Shown in pieces: positions 7,990-34,541 of a stretch of 64,000 nt of DNA (within the stretch, counting starts at the first letter, position 1; every line of letters starts with the position of its first letter). The stretch is from Lachnospiraceae bacterium (GTDB lineage: Bacteria > Bacillota > Clostridia > Lachnospirales > Lachnospiraceae): positions 1-64,000 of the forward strand of contig JAILRO010000045.1 of assembly GCA_024698145.1 (NCBI GenBank). Direction: 5' to 3'. Position numbers and translations under genes: made by a program. The notes beneath the pieces are model-generated. The model had not been told where the DNA came from, ran no database searches, and saw only the letters and a program-made list of their open reading frames with translations.

Positions 7990-9003
7990 TTATTCAGGAA
8001 GGTACTTGTTGGTAAAACCGTAACCTTCCGGTATCTCTTCTGAAAGTCCGTTATCAGAAAGCCACTTGTAGAAAGCATCCCATCTTGTCTGATCAATGTA
8101 GCCCCACTGCTCCACCTCTGCTTTGTACTGAGGTGACAACCACTCCTGGCTCTCTTTTACAAGATCAAGGCTAAGTTCCGGAACCTGTTTAACCAAAATC
8201 TCTGCAGCCTTATCCGGATTATCTATTGCAAACTCATAGCCTTTCTTTGTTGCACGAAGAAACGCTTTAGCTGTCTCTTCATTTTCCGCAAGCCAATCCG
8301 AGTTTGAAACAATTACAGGACTGTAAAAATCAAACTCCGGTGTTATATCCTTAAAGTAAATCATATTTGTATCAAGACCTGCCTGTTTTGTGGATATTCC
8401 GGCCCATGCATAATAAACCCAAATAGCATCTATATCCTGCTGTAATGCCGCAGCTTCATTCTCTACATATTCAGGGATAAGATTAACCTTCTCAAAATCT
8501 CCACCATCAGCCTCAACAATGTTTTTCATCATGGCTTTCTCTATCGGCAAATCCCAAGTCGCATAATTCTTACCCTCAAGATCCTTTGGCGAATTAATAT
8601 TATCTTCCTTAAGAGAAATGATTCCCGAAGTGTTATGCTGAATAATTGTTGCAACTGCCTCTACAGGAATCTTTTCTTCCGATGTAAATACAGGCGGAAG
8701 GTAATCCTGGAAATCTATACCAAACTCTGCCTGTCCGCTTGCAACCATTGTTGTTGCGCCATCCTCAGGCGGTTGAACTATATTAACTTTGAGACCTTCT
8801 TCTTCAAAATAGCCCTCATTTTGTGCCACATAAAAACCTGTATGGTTTGTGTTCGGAGTCCAATCAAGCACAAGCGTGATTTCCTTAAGTTCTCCATCCT
8901 TTTTTTCTGCCTTGTTTCCACCGGCAGTTTCCTCTTTCTTACCACAACCAGCAAGTGCCAAAACCATTACACTTGCCAAAATTATTCCTGCTATCTTTTT
9001 CAT
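7990..9003 (-). CDS. NMT1/THI5-like ABC substrate-binding lipoprotein
   Basis: Extracellular solute-binding lipoprotein. The signal peptide ends in the lipobox LALAGC near residues 15-20. The mature part begins with the NMT1/THI5 hallmark VLDWTPNTNHTGFYVAQNEGYF-like segment (about 44-66), followed by the GQAEFGIDF region that shapes the ligand pocket. Family members bind the thiamine precursor hydroxymethylpyrimidine (ThiY) or related aromatic ligands. Length (337) is normal. A GAAAGGAT ribosome site precedes the ATG. No TPP riboswitch is recognised upstream; instead the upstream 500 bases form the large structured RNA candidate, which if transcribed leftward would be contiguous with this gene. 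Ligand is unproven. Confidence 0.88.
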   Translation of the reverse strand: MKKIAGIILASVMVLALAGCGKKEETAGGNKAEKKDGELKEITLVLDWTPNTNHTGFYVAQNEGYFEEEGLKVNIVQPPEDGATTMVASGQAEFGIDFQDYLPPVFTSEEKIPVEAVATIIQHNTSGIISLKEDNINSPKDLEGKNYATWDLPIEKAMMKNIVEADGGDFEKVNLIPEYVENEAAALQQDIDAIWVYYAWAGISTKQAGLDTNMIYFKDITPEFDFYSPVIVSNSDWLAENEETAKAFLRATKKGYEFAIDNPDKAAEILVKQVPELSLDLVKESQEWLSPQYKAEVEQWGYIDQTRWDAFYKWLSDNGLSEEIPEGYGFTNKYLPE

Positions 9004-9079
9004 AATTCTATCCTTTCAATTTTATTGCTGTTTAGTTACATTTTACGAGCGAAACTTCTAATTGTTTTTTAAGCGTCTC

Positions 9080-9587
9080 TTATGATTGCAGTTCCAACGC
9101 AGGCAAGCTTTCGCCCGTTTTGAGCGCAACGGTACTAAGTTCGTACTACGTATTCACTAAGTACCGGCGGTCAAAGAGGACCTGCTTATGGATACTGCAA
9201 CATAATTCGACGCCTGATATACGGTTTGAAGTTTCGCATGTACAACATAGAGGGCGGCACGCGACTCGCCTTCGGCTCGCATCAGCTGATTTGATGCACT
9301 TTCATACATGAAGTAACAGCGTAAGATTATCTGTGTATGAAATATCCTGTGACATCTGAAAGGTACTTAGAGGTTGTTGGTATGCCGTGAGTACCTAAGC
9401 GAATGCCTGACATGGATGTCAGGCAAGGCATGTTGAGACAGGATGTCGAATCCATAGCCGGTCGCGTATTATGAGAAAGTGTAGTCGGCATACCTACAAC
9501 CTCTTAGTGCGTTTCACCTGGATACAGGATATTCATACATCTGATAATCTATACGCGTTCGTTATATAGAAAAAGTGCATCACATCA
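9080..9587. ncRNA. candidate large, highly structured non-coding RNA (about 500-600 nt)
   Basis: No plausible gene covers 9004-9709, but the stretch is full of long complementary arms. Domain 1: 9080-9092 with 9194-9205 (12 pairs, one bulge), 9099-9103 with 9181-9185, 9131-9136 with 9160-9165. Domain 2 is nested: 9292-9302 with 9572-9582 (11 perfect pairs), 9319-9331 with 9543-9556 (13 pairs, one bulge), 9334-9350 with 9524-9539 (16 pairs, one bulge), 9369-9387 with 9486-9504 (18 of 19), and an inner hairpin 9405-9411 with 9418-9424. Mismatched loops and bulges argue against a simple repeat. Size and complexity are like the ROOL, GOLLD and OLE classes; ROOL is known from rumen Firmicutes, but I cannot assign a class. 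Strand is unresolved: a TTGCAC-18-TATATA promoter (9644-9673, minus) would give a leftward RNA of about 560 nt. Confidence 0.6.
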
Positions 9588-9654
9588 ATTTGTGCGAATG
9601 GTTTAGTGGTGTCTCAAGAAAAGTCGTGTATCTTCCGACATAGTATATAGATGT

Positions 9655-9683
9655 TTGTCGAAAATAGGTGCAAGTGATATAAT
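9655..9683 (+). promoter_or_regulatory. sigma-A promoter of the FliK-like/flagellin unit
   Basis: TTGTCG, 17 bases, TATAAT on the plus strand, with start near 9690 and the ATG at 9710. It overlaps the possible leftward promoter of the structured RNA (boxes at 9644-9649 and 9668-9673), so the two would compete. Confidence 0.6.
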
Positions 9684-9709
9684 TGTGACTATGGAAAAGA
9701 GGTGGCAGG

Positions 9710-12700
9710 ATGAATTATCAGATTACCGGAAATAAAGCAACAGGAGATAACACAATGTTTGGTAACTTTAATATAAATGCAGGTGGCACAGGGAATGGAA
9801 AGTCAGGTTTGTTTGGTGGGAACAGTGTCGGCGATGTTCTTGCATGTACTTTGATACAGGGTGGAAAAGAACCGGTGCTTGATCTTAATGGAGTAAGTAT
9901 TAAGACTCATGCGACGGAAGAACTTTCCAATGCAAAGCCGGGTGATACCGTGTATCTTAAGATTCAGAGTGCGGATGCAGGCAAGGTTTCTCTTAAGATG
10001 ATAGGTCTTAAAGAGGCGCCTGAAGGTATGCAGATGAGTGCCGCGACAAGTGCACAGGTTATGAATAACACAGAGCAGATGTCAGAGATGATTAAGGATA
10101 ATCTTGATGGTTCGCTTGATGAAAAAGAAGCCAAAGAGAATCAGAAACAGATTCTTAGAAGCATATCTTCAGAAGAACTGGCACAACTTAAGATGATGCA
10201 GATAGATGTCACCAATGCCACACTTTCGGACCTTATGGGAATGGTAGTGACATTGCGCTCAGGAGAACATAGACAGGAAGTTAATGACCAATTAGGTGAT
10301 ATAGTCAAGGAGACTATCGGCAAATTACGAAATGAGCTTATGGCAGGAACGGAACCTACCAAGACATCAACTGCAGATGTTTCCGGTAATACTGCTGATA
10401 ATATAAATGATGAGGATAAGGGAATCAACAGACTTAACAGCGAAGGATACGTAGTTAAAGTTCGTGCACCGAAAGCAAATGTGGGTGCTGCATTTACAGG
10501 TGCAACACAAACAGGTCAAACGTCTGCGTTTGGCGATATTAAGGTGTCTGAGGAACAGATGATATATCTTATTCGTAATGGCATGAAGTTTACGATTGAT
10601 AATGTGGATGTTGCCAAGAATAGCGTTAATGAGGAAAGTCCATCGGCTGCGCTACCGCTTGATGAGAAGGTGTGGAATGATATATATCCGCAGGTGACAT
10701 CGATTATTGAGTCGGCGGGAATGTCGGTTTCGGAGCAGAGTCTTTCGGGCGCAAAGTTCATGCTCTCTCATGAACTTCCAATTACAGTAGATTCGCTTCG
10801 TATGTATATGGCGATCAATTCTCTTAATCAGAGAGGAATAACAGAGGCACAGTTAGCTGCTAACATAACCGAGCAGATTGCAATGGGTAATCCGCCGGAA
10901 AATGCAAGGATTATCGGACCGACTCTTAATGAGAAAGCACAGCAGTTTGTTGAAAAAGTGCAGGCAATAACGGCTCGTTCTGTTGATATGGCGATTAATC
11001 AGGGTAAGCCTGTAACGATATCATATTTGTACAATTCTTCGATGCGTAATGTAGATGTGAAGCGTATGCGTACAGCCGTAAATACCGGTGTTGAGGGCGC
11101 ATCACTTTCTCTTAGTGCAGTAGATAATGATAGTGTGGCAGAGGGAGCAGGAGTTCCGCTTTCTAATAATCCGATGGCGGTCAGCGCCAGAAGACAGTTA
11201 GAGGAAATCCGTCTTTCGATGACCTTAGAGGCTGCCAACAGACTTGTAAGACAGGATTTTAATATAGATGCAAGACCACTATCTGCGGTTGTGGAAATGC
11301 TCAGGAATCAGGAAAATACCTTGTATGAGAATGTTGTTTCTTCGCACGATATTCATGACATTCCGGAAGATGTAGATCTTGTTAAAGAGACTTTGAAGGA
11401 AACAGAGGCGTTAAAGAGTCTTCCTGCATATGCAATGGCAGACGTGGTAAGACGTCCGGGAATGACAGTTGGTGGCTTATATGAAAGAGCAAGTCACCTT
11501 AAGATGACATTGGCAGGTCAGGCGTATGAGACGATGATGACTAAACCGAGACAGGATATGGGCGATTCGATAAATGATGCCTTCCGCAATGTGGACGAGA
11601 TTCTTGCCGACATGAATATGGACAGAAACCGAGAGAATCAGCGTGCAATAAGGATACTTGCATATAACGAGATGGAGCTTTCGCCCGAGAATATAGCAAG
11701 TGTTAAAACGGTTGATGCCAAGGTGCAGCAGATGTTTGAAACTCTCACGCCACAGATAGTTCTTAATCTTATAAGAGAGAATAAGAATCCTCTCAATATG
11801 ACAATAGACGGTCTTAATCAGGAGATAAGCGCGCAGCGGGATATAAGAGGAATTACGGACGAACAGAGATTTTCCGAGTTCTTATACCAGCTTGACAAAA
11901 ACGGTAATATCACAAAAGAAGAGAGAACAAGTTTTATCGGCATTTATAGACTTCTTGATAAAATTGAGAAATCTCATGGTAAAGATATAGGTGCAATAGT
12001 AAGAAACGGTCAGGAGGTTACTCTTGCTAATCTTTTCTCTGCGGATAAGAGTAGACAGGTTCGCGGAATGGATGTAAGGGTCAACGACAACTTTGGCGAG
12101 AGAGTTGATGTGGCAACTGACAATAAGAGTATTCTAGACCAGATTAACACGGCCTATAATGAAACGCTTGCAGGCAGCATTTTGCGTCATATACAACCGG
12201 AAACACTTATGAGTATGGACCGCACAAGCTATATGAATATGTCCTTTGAGGAACTTAACAACATCATGAAAGCCGGCTTTACAAAAGAAGGTCAGCTGGA
12301 TTTGAGTGACCAGTTAGAATCAAGACTTGCGGATGCACTTTCGTATGAGGAAGATGTAGCAACGATGCTAGAGGCTAATGACATGCCGGGTACGGTAACA
12401 AATATAATTGCCGCACAGCAGGTTATGTACGGTGAGGACGGCATTTTCGGAATGGTACGTGACTTAAAACGTGGACTTTCAAAGGAAGCAAGAGAACGTA
12501 TAACAGAAAGGGAAGGACAGGTTCTTGAAACTCTCGAAAGCAAAGAAAATGTTATGTACGCTATGGAGAATATAAGAGCGGAACTTTCAAGGGAGGTTCA
12601 TGCCAAGGAAACGGATGGTACGATTACTGCGAAGGATATACAGTCGCTTAAGTACATCAACGCGGGCATGCCCATAGCACTTAGAAGTGCGGAAAATGAT

Positions 12701-13096: not shown

Positions 13097-13117
13097 TATA
13101 AGTGATTATATAGGATA

Positions 13118-13135
13118 CAGAATAAGGATGTTCTG
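13118..13135 (+). promoter_or_regulatory. putative CsrA-binding hairpin in the first flagellin leader
   Basis: CAGAA (13118-13122) pairs with TTCTG (13131-13135), exposing an AGGAT loop, the classic CsrA target form. Further GGA motifs lie at about 13161-13164 (TGGATGT) and at the ribosome site AAAGGATAGGG (13184-13193). The pairing of one upstream site with one at the ribosome site is how CsrA blocks hag translation in B. subtilis. Confidence 0.4.
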
Positions 13136-13201
13136 GAAAAAAGTGAGGCTATTGCAAAAATGGATGTTTGTGGGCTAAGCTGAAAGGATAGGGTGAATAC
13201 T

Positions 13202-33823: not shown

Positions 33824-33856
33824 TAACAGACAACATGGATGAGAGGAGAAGGGTGT

Positions 33857-34321
33857 ATGGTAGTACAGACTAAGTTTTTTGGTGAAGTAGAGATTGATGA
33901 TGCGAAGATTCTTGATTTCCCTAACGGTATAATCGGTTTTGAGGATTTTAAGAAGTTTGCTATTATTTATGATATTGATGATGATAAGGAGACAAAGATA
34001 AGCTGGCTTCAGTCGGTTGAAGAGCCTACATTGGCACTTCCTGTAATTGATCCGATGGCAATTGTTGCTGAATATTCTCCTATGATAGAGGATGAACTTC
34101 TTAAGCCACTTGGTAACTCTGCAGATGAAGATCTCCTTTGCTTGTTAGTTATGACAGTTCCTTCTGATATGACCAAGGTTACGGCTAATATGAAGGCACC
34201 GGTTATAATCAATTCCAAGACGAACAAAGGTGTGCAGCTTATAGTTGATAATGCGGATTATCCTGTTAAATTTAACGTATATGAATCCGTTCAGAAGATG
34301 AAGAAGGAAGCGGGTGAATAA
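33857..34321 (+). CDS. fliW: flagellar assembly factor FliW
   Basis: A 154-residue beta-rich protein that binds flagellin and antagonises CsrA. Typical segments are [27 protein letters not shown] and [19 protein letters not shown] 33857 is chosen because GAGGAGAAGGG sits just upstream; the earlier ATG at 33839 has no ribosome site. It is followed by csrA with one base between stop and start, the standard FliW-CsrA pair. Confidence 0.95.
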
Positions 34322-34322
34322 T

Positions 34323-34541
34323 ATGTTAGCATTATCAAGAAAGTCGAATGAATCAATAATTATCGGTAATGACATAGAGATAACTGTTCTTGAGGTTAAA
34401 GGTGAACAGGTTAAAATAGGAATTAAAGCTCCAAAGTCAATACCTGTATACAGAGAAGAGGTTTATCAGCAGATTAGAGAAGCTAATAAGGAAGCTGCTT
34501 CTGATGCTGTGACTGAGAATATTAAGAATCTTTTTAAATAA
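34323..34541 (+). CDS. csrA: translational regulator CsrA
   Basis: RNA-binding dimer (72 residues) starting [18 protein letters not shown], with the conserved [15 protein letters not shown] strand-helix region. It binds GGA loops near ribosome sites and blocks translation, chiefly of flagellin in Gram-positives, and is sequestered by FliW. Start is ATG 34323, with GAAGGAAGCGGG upstream inside fliW. The C-terminal tail is slightly extended. Candidate targets in this window are the leaders at 13118, 32205, 38344 and 53770. Confidence 0.97.

Follow-up and report, generated by a model that had tools for sequence, protein, structure and literature searches.

Introduction

What is the large, gene-free structure at positions 9080-9600 of a 64,000-nucleotide stretch of Lachnospiraceae DNA (hereafter the window): a single giant RNA, the leader of a neighbouring gene, or something else? 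In this study, we find that TwoAYGGAY (RF01731; PMC2864571), a family filed by Rfam as cis-regulatory and proposed in 2014 to be a clostridial CsrA-binding sRNA (PMC4333381), sits here at the tip of a multi-copy, transposon-like repeat that has defined ends, other modules and, in one genome (G309), target duplications. In this light a known RNA family becomes the cargo of mobile repeats; module A is a new structured repeat besides. The open literature, taken without the supplement of PMC2864571, yielded no published account of TwoAYGGAY mobility or of its co-occurrence with csrA.

Fold and parts of the window copy

The sequence at 9080-9600 has a predicted minimum free energy of -211.7 kcal/mol, compared with -144.2 (sd 6.4) for 100 shuffled sequences, none of which was as low (z -10.5), and the long helices described at this locus in an initial annotation, together with their coordinates, are borne out by this comparison. 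The minus strand folds nearly as well (-194.9 kcal/mol, z -10.0) because the structure is an imperfect palindrome; since both strands fold well, the strand is not assignable from folding alone. The two-domain layout noted earlier also reappears in the predicted fold, its 5' domain being module A and its 3' domain module B, and the reported absence of a gene holds: the longest open reading frame (ORF) wholly within the structure is 63 amino acids, on which ground a protein-coding reading was dropped.

The identity suggested for the structure did not survive. The initial annotation had pointed to giant RNA classes, yet a scan of 9000-9710 with Rfam 15, on both strands and to E = 10, gave no match to the ROOL, GOLLD, OLE or raiA models and returned TwoAYGGAY alone. 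At curated thresholds, Rfam 15 likewise gives no other match anywhere in the 64-kb window; the segment at 9355-9518 (+) aligns to model positions 1-168 of 168 at 83.8 bits against a cut-off of 43. Of the earlier proposal of a large ornate non-coding RNA, what stands is a conserved, covarying, gene-less structured nucleic acid; what falls is the single giant RNA, in place of which we find a composite repeat, present in many copies and built of separable modules. A match to a repeat family had been named in advance as incompatible with that proposal, and the structure is in effect such a case, a dispersed repeat.

As delimited by copy alignments and comparison with a sister species (G251), this copy of the composite foldback element spans approximately 9027-9580 (+). 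Its left end reads GCTGTTTAGTTA, with the left terminal repeat GCTGTTTAGTTAC at 9027-9039 (+), and it is without the usual right end, TAAACAGC, terminating at the joint GTGCAT (9575-9580). Within it lie the module A core (9080-9206, +), a structured repeat of about 125 bases that has no Rfam match and recurs in the genus both alongside module B and apart from it, and module B itself (9290-9580, +), a long imperfect palindrome recognised from the fold and from copy alignments, with the TwoAYGGAY core (+) at its tip. In the core, hairpin 1 (9404-9425, +) presents, with its closing pair, the loop CATGGATG (9411-9418), a candidate CsrA-type site, and hairpin 2 (9437-9447, +) presents CAGGATG (9439-9445), identical to the CsrB repeat CAGGA(U/A/C)G. 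Set against the AYGGAY loop pattern, the window core has AUGGAU in loop 1 and AGGAU, shorter by one base, in loop 2.

A dispersed repeat with defined ends

The window's genome (G000; 2.89 Mb in 71 contigs) contains 21 TwoAYGGAY matches at E <= 0.001, 18 of them above the curated score and several at contig ends. When copies were aligned with their flanks, similarity extended to sharp edges, outside which the sequences were unrelated; the left end reads GCTGTTTAGTTAA and the right end TTAAACAGC. Searching the genome for these ends with up to 3 mismatches gave 27 left and 33 right ends, and reversed controls gave 0. Two-ended copies in this genome and in G251 range from approximately 380 to 790 bases and are variable inside: L090 and L091 are without the TwoAYGGAY tip, L089 has another tip, L023 is without module A, and some copies in G251 hold a pair of oppositely directed TwoAYGGAY cores (L186, from full sequence; L189, from blast pieces). 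By blast, the element or parts of it occur in 20 of the 26 genomes of the genus, where the part up to ~9284, which includes module A, and the remainder, module B, are found joined or separately. The element joins two separable modules.

Some arrangements of the cores deserve mention in their own right. In L012 (G000:C1:1-504) the half bearing the tip is inverted with respect to the remainder of the copy, through either inversion at the palindrome or faulty assembly at the contig end. Among the matches listed, six close pairs of cores, 116-300 bases apart, run in opposite directions (G086:C1:72285-72913, G008:C47:139778-140356, G008:C33:53805-54433, G208:C69:180277-180803, G037:C123:25808-26314 and G449:C47:4850-5280), and in 6/6 the minus copy comes first, so that the GGA strands face outward, an arrangement reminiscent of BIME doublets; two more close pairs among the matches listed (G166:C36 and G492:C1) run in the same direction.

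Nine element sites of G000 were sought in G251. One of them (L021) has no element in G251, where its flanks join directly; at two (L011 and L013) an element adjoins the site in both genomes; and at the other six the two flanks lie at different places in G251. Two flanks that border different elements in G000 adjoin in G251 (C12:59837/59842) with no element between them, and the window copy is itself a joint of this kind: G251 shares the continuation of its right flank but not that of its left, and the copy breaks off at the shared GTGCAT, short of its last bases. These re-paired flanks could result from recombination between copies or from mis-assembly. Taken by themselves, the six re-paired sites may reflect elements that drive chromosome rearrangements or that mislead assembly.

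The copies lie between genes, none of 56 loci being inside a long ORF. Of these loci, 45 have ORFs nearby on either side; by a mechanical ORF call, the strands of the upstream and downstream neighbours, taken relative to the GGA strand, were ++ in 12, -- in 16, +- in 10 and -+ in 7. The copies thus have no clear orientation bias to neighbouring genes, which speaks against a leader role. Past the element in the window lies a promoter-like site at 9655-9683 (a consensus match alone) that would serve the rightward gene, which encodes a DUF6240 protein with a FliK-like match slightly below the cut-off. A leader RNA was dropped on the orientation counts and on this site. The initial annotation had raised, as an alternative, a giant leader of the NMT1-type binding-protein gene, and to both of these observations must be added that the GGA-loop strand heads away from that gene. 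Whether cast as such a leader, as the leader of a flagellar gene, or as a single giant ornate RNA of the ROOL, GOLLD or OLE type, an explanation of this kind would suit the size, the fold and the gene-free gap, but with repeat copies beside unrelated genes, the scan for those classes empty to E = 10, and strand and promoter-like site placed as they are, we consider it extremely improbable.

Target duplications and mobility

In three further genomes (G122, G176 and G042), TwoAYGGAY lies within foldback elements of ~310-340 bases whose ends, with variation, read GGTGTCAAAA...TTTTGACACC. A single-contig genome from another family, G309, has 24 left ends and eight copies, seven of them near-identical, in unrelated flanks. 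We examined 26 loci in G309 for target duplications; five had no recognisable left or right end and three more were dropped, leaving 18 that were scored. An exact direct repeat of 8-12 bases lay outside the ends in 12 of the 18, as opposed to 1 of 306 mismatched flank pairs, and we therefore take these repeats as a mark of DNA transposition. A stricter test at fixed offset was weaker than this free test, yet still above controls, reaching at best 7/20 copies with at least 6 of 8 bases (controls 2.6%) and 5/20 with at least 8 of 10 (controls 0.24%). In the window's genus, where the target is AT-rich, we saw no clear target duplication (at least 5 bases in 3/15, control 29/210). With defined ends in dispersed copies, a site empty in the sister species and duplications in G309 only, mobility of the element is well supported.

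The structure would then be one copy of a non-autonomous, MITE-like foldback transposable element with no gene of its own, placed between genes by a transposase supplied in trans. Like MITEs, the element is short, non-coding, intergenic and multi-copy, with terminal inverted repeats and, in G309, target duplications, and the window copy has lost its last right-end bases; unlike them, it bears a covarying core that has been kept across 11 families as ends change and interiors are swapped. REP, BIME and REPIN sequences are dispersed extragenic palindromes. The present element resembles them in this respect, and in forming some inverted doublets, but is larger and has target duplications in G309.

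No transposase was found between two ends in the end-pattern search of G309 or in eight longer stretches, and a guessed end pattern applied to six genomes gave 2 matches, in G042 only. In G042, a csrA paralogue ~1.2 kb from a TwoAYGGAY copy was considered as a coding partner and rejected; by eye its neighbours, a flagellin, a tyrosine-recombinase-like ORF and an aspartyl-tRNA-synthetase-like ORF, showed nothing element-like. Plasmids queried with a G309 copy gave no match, nor did phages queried with the window element. In L143 (G122) inverted flanking sequence extends for ~15 bases beyond the element ends, and the same is seen less clearly in L148 (G176); insertion into a small hairpin or terminator, at its loop, could leave such a pattern.

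Covariation in both modules and the GGA loops

Covariation among homologues, on which the initial annotation had made its RNA reading depend, is present both in the TwoAYGGAY stems and in module A. For the core we aligned one sequence from each of 36 genomes (the window and 35 of 36 retrieved loci, L203 being left out), for which RNAalifold predicted 20 pairs, 18 with two-side changes. In this alignment 89.6% of cells pair (57.0 when shuffled), 233 cells have two-side changes (shuffled 69.1), and the covariation score is 0.783, compared with 0.195 for shuffles and a maximum of 0.191 for the slid structure; the number of pairs with two-side changes was not beyond shuffles (18 vs 16.6, with 94 of 500 shuffles reaching 18).

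Module A was scored in the same manner, against shuffles and a slid structure, with the window fold as reference, on 23 sequences of the 9080-9206 core taken from 28 loci with a match, several rows sharing a genome. Here 81.7% of cells pair (shuffled 70.8), two-side changes occur in 31 of 48 pairs (shuffled mean 24.0) and in 157 cells (shuffled 65.8), and the covariation score is 0.349 (shuffled 0.165; slid maximum 0.118). Further pair types were not above shuffles (58 vs 59.9), and conservation is poor in the five outermost pairs. Module A is a covarying structured repeat in its own right. Its core (window 9080-9206 and loci L158-L175) has many invariant bases, and many genomes of the genus hold several copies.

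Quasipalindromes are subject to template switching, in which correction of one arm of a palindrome by the other could make double changes in one step. As the source of the covariation this was rejected, since one-side changes dominate among recent copies (one-side versus two-side Watson-Crick cells: 39 vs 3 in G309, 24 vs 2 in G122 and 9 vs 0 in G176), and the double changes therefore look stepwise. The corresponding counts in G000 are 40 vs 16 for module B and 47 vs 13 for module A, and one-step arm correction may contribute in that genome.

The GGA loops are mostly conserved. GGA is present in loop 1 in 31 of the 36 cores, in loop 2 in 31, in both in 28, in at least one in 34 and in neither in 2, fractions that are biased upward because the search model itself includes the loops; CACGATG, a loop that lacks GGA, occurs in 4 and 4 of the 36. 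All 36 cores share the C-G pair that closes hairpin 1. Published descriptions of CsrA sites include the CAGGA(U/A/C)G repeats of CsrB, RUACARGGAUGU from SELEX and an ANGGAN hexaloop for RsmE (PMC7652899), and the window loops, CAUGGAUG and CAGGAUG, appear to fit them. CsrA binding by the core is probable. The core also resembles the CsrA-titrating sRNAs CsrB, CsrC and RsmX/Y/Z in its predicted placement of GGA in hairpin loops, CAGGAUG and a CANGGANG-like sequence, but CsrB has ~20 loops as opposed to two per TwoAYGGAY core, and the core is found in many dispersed copies, with no promoter or terminator of its own in evidence.

Co-occurrence with csrA and the proposed role of the element

We defined carriers by a TwoAYGGAY match at E <= 0.001 and CsrA by PF02599 at E <= 0.001, and compared the two in partly overlapping samples of the family (250 genomes, 249 genera; 39 carriers, 37 above the Rfam cut-off) and of the class (341 genomes; 32 carriers in 11 families, 23 above and 9 below the cut-off). 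CsrA was present in 38/39 carriers and 90/211 non-carriers of the family (Fisher p 9.7e-12), and in 27/32 carriers and 84/309 non-carriers of the class (p 2.8e-10), p values that overstate the association because they ignore kinship and motility, and lineage and motility go with csrA. By hand count, CsrA was present in 19/23 class carriers above the cut-off and, when the window's family was removed from the class sample, in 22/27 carriers and 78/301 others. The carriers without CsrA are G168 in the family sample and G449, G490, G529, G547 and G589 in the class sample, and each of the latter five has CsrA-positive congeners in the sample. TwoAYGGAY is nearly restricted to csrA genomes, and most carriers have at least two matches (32/39 in the family and 24/32 in the class, lower bounds given that 10 or 8 candidates were scored per genome).

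The window itself encodes, outside the element, flagellin, FliS, FlgK, a second flagellin-type gene, FliW (33839-34321, +; PF02623, E 2.8e-39) and CsrA (ORF 34323-34541, +; PF02599 match at 34323-34481, E 3.2e-26). This CsrA has the residues L4 and R44 named in PMC7652899, where FliW is described as the protein antagonist of CsrA, the one known in Firmicutes. The flagellin leader (window 13097-13193) contains several GGA sites (AAGGAUG, AUGGAUG and AAGGAU), as would be expected of a CsrA target.

On balance, we think it probable that the element is a foldback cassette, mobilised by a transposase, with a transcript that binds CsrA. Transcription of the GGA strand would yield a stable arm with two CsrA-type loops able to hold CsrA, so that a transcribed copy might titrate CsrA, as a small decoy or a docking site for it. 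Such elements may even form a class of bacterial transposable elements with a conserved CsrA-decoy RNA payload: mobile CsrA sponges that spread among csrA-bearing Clostridia with changing ends and modules, and whose copy number and insertion sites would re-tune or rewire the CsrA network (flagella, metabolism). We offer this wider proposal tentatively, as a possibility short of a likelihood.

A purely selfish foldback element would explain much of the same evidence. Its stems and loops would be recognised, as DNA or RNA, by the transposase or another protein, and csrA would co-occur merely as a marker of motile lineages; the target duplications, random orientation and intergenic placement agree with this, as do the few G-U pairs in the core stems and, in G309, the elements of ~110 bases that have identical ends and no core. 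That the core and its GGA loops have been kept over 11 families despite changing ends, and that the csrA association is strong, speak against it, and we regard it as unlikely. We would give still less credence to domesticated genes for CsrA-binding sRNAs, multiplied and kept by the host like CsrB and CsrC, with mobility only in their past origin. Such genes are in line with the covariation, the loops and the csrA association, and with the proposal already in print (PMC4333381), but copy positions differ between sister species, target duplications in G309 are fresh, and there is no orientation or promoter signature; this makes them improbable.

CsrA-titrating sRNAs have been described as confined to Gammaproteobacteria (PMC4333381). 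If CsrA binds the core of the cassette that we favour, a regulator-binding RNA would be spread by transposition, adding an RNA layer in Firmicutes beside the protein FliW. The question of CsrA-binding RNAs outside Gammaproteobacteria also becomes directly testable. Several carriers (G008, G037, G042, G060, G157 and G143) also encode extra, divergent CsrA-like proteins of ~93-132 amino acids; in G143, whose TwoAYGGAY match scores highest in the family sample, the sole CsrA-like protein is divergent.
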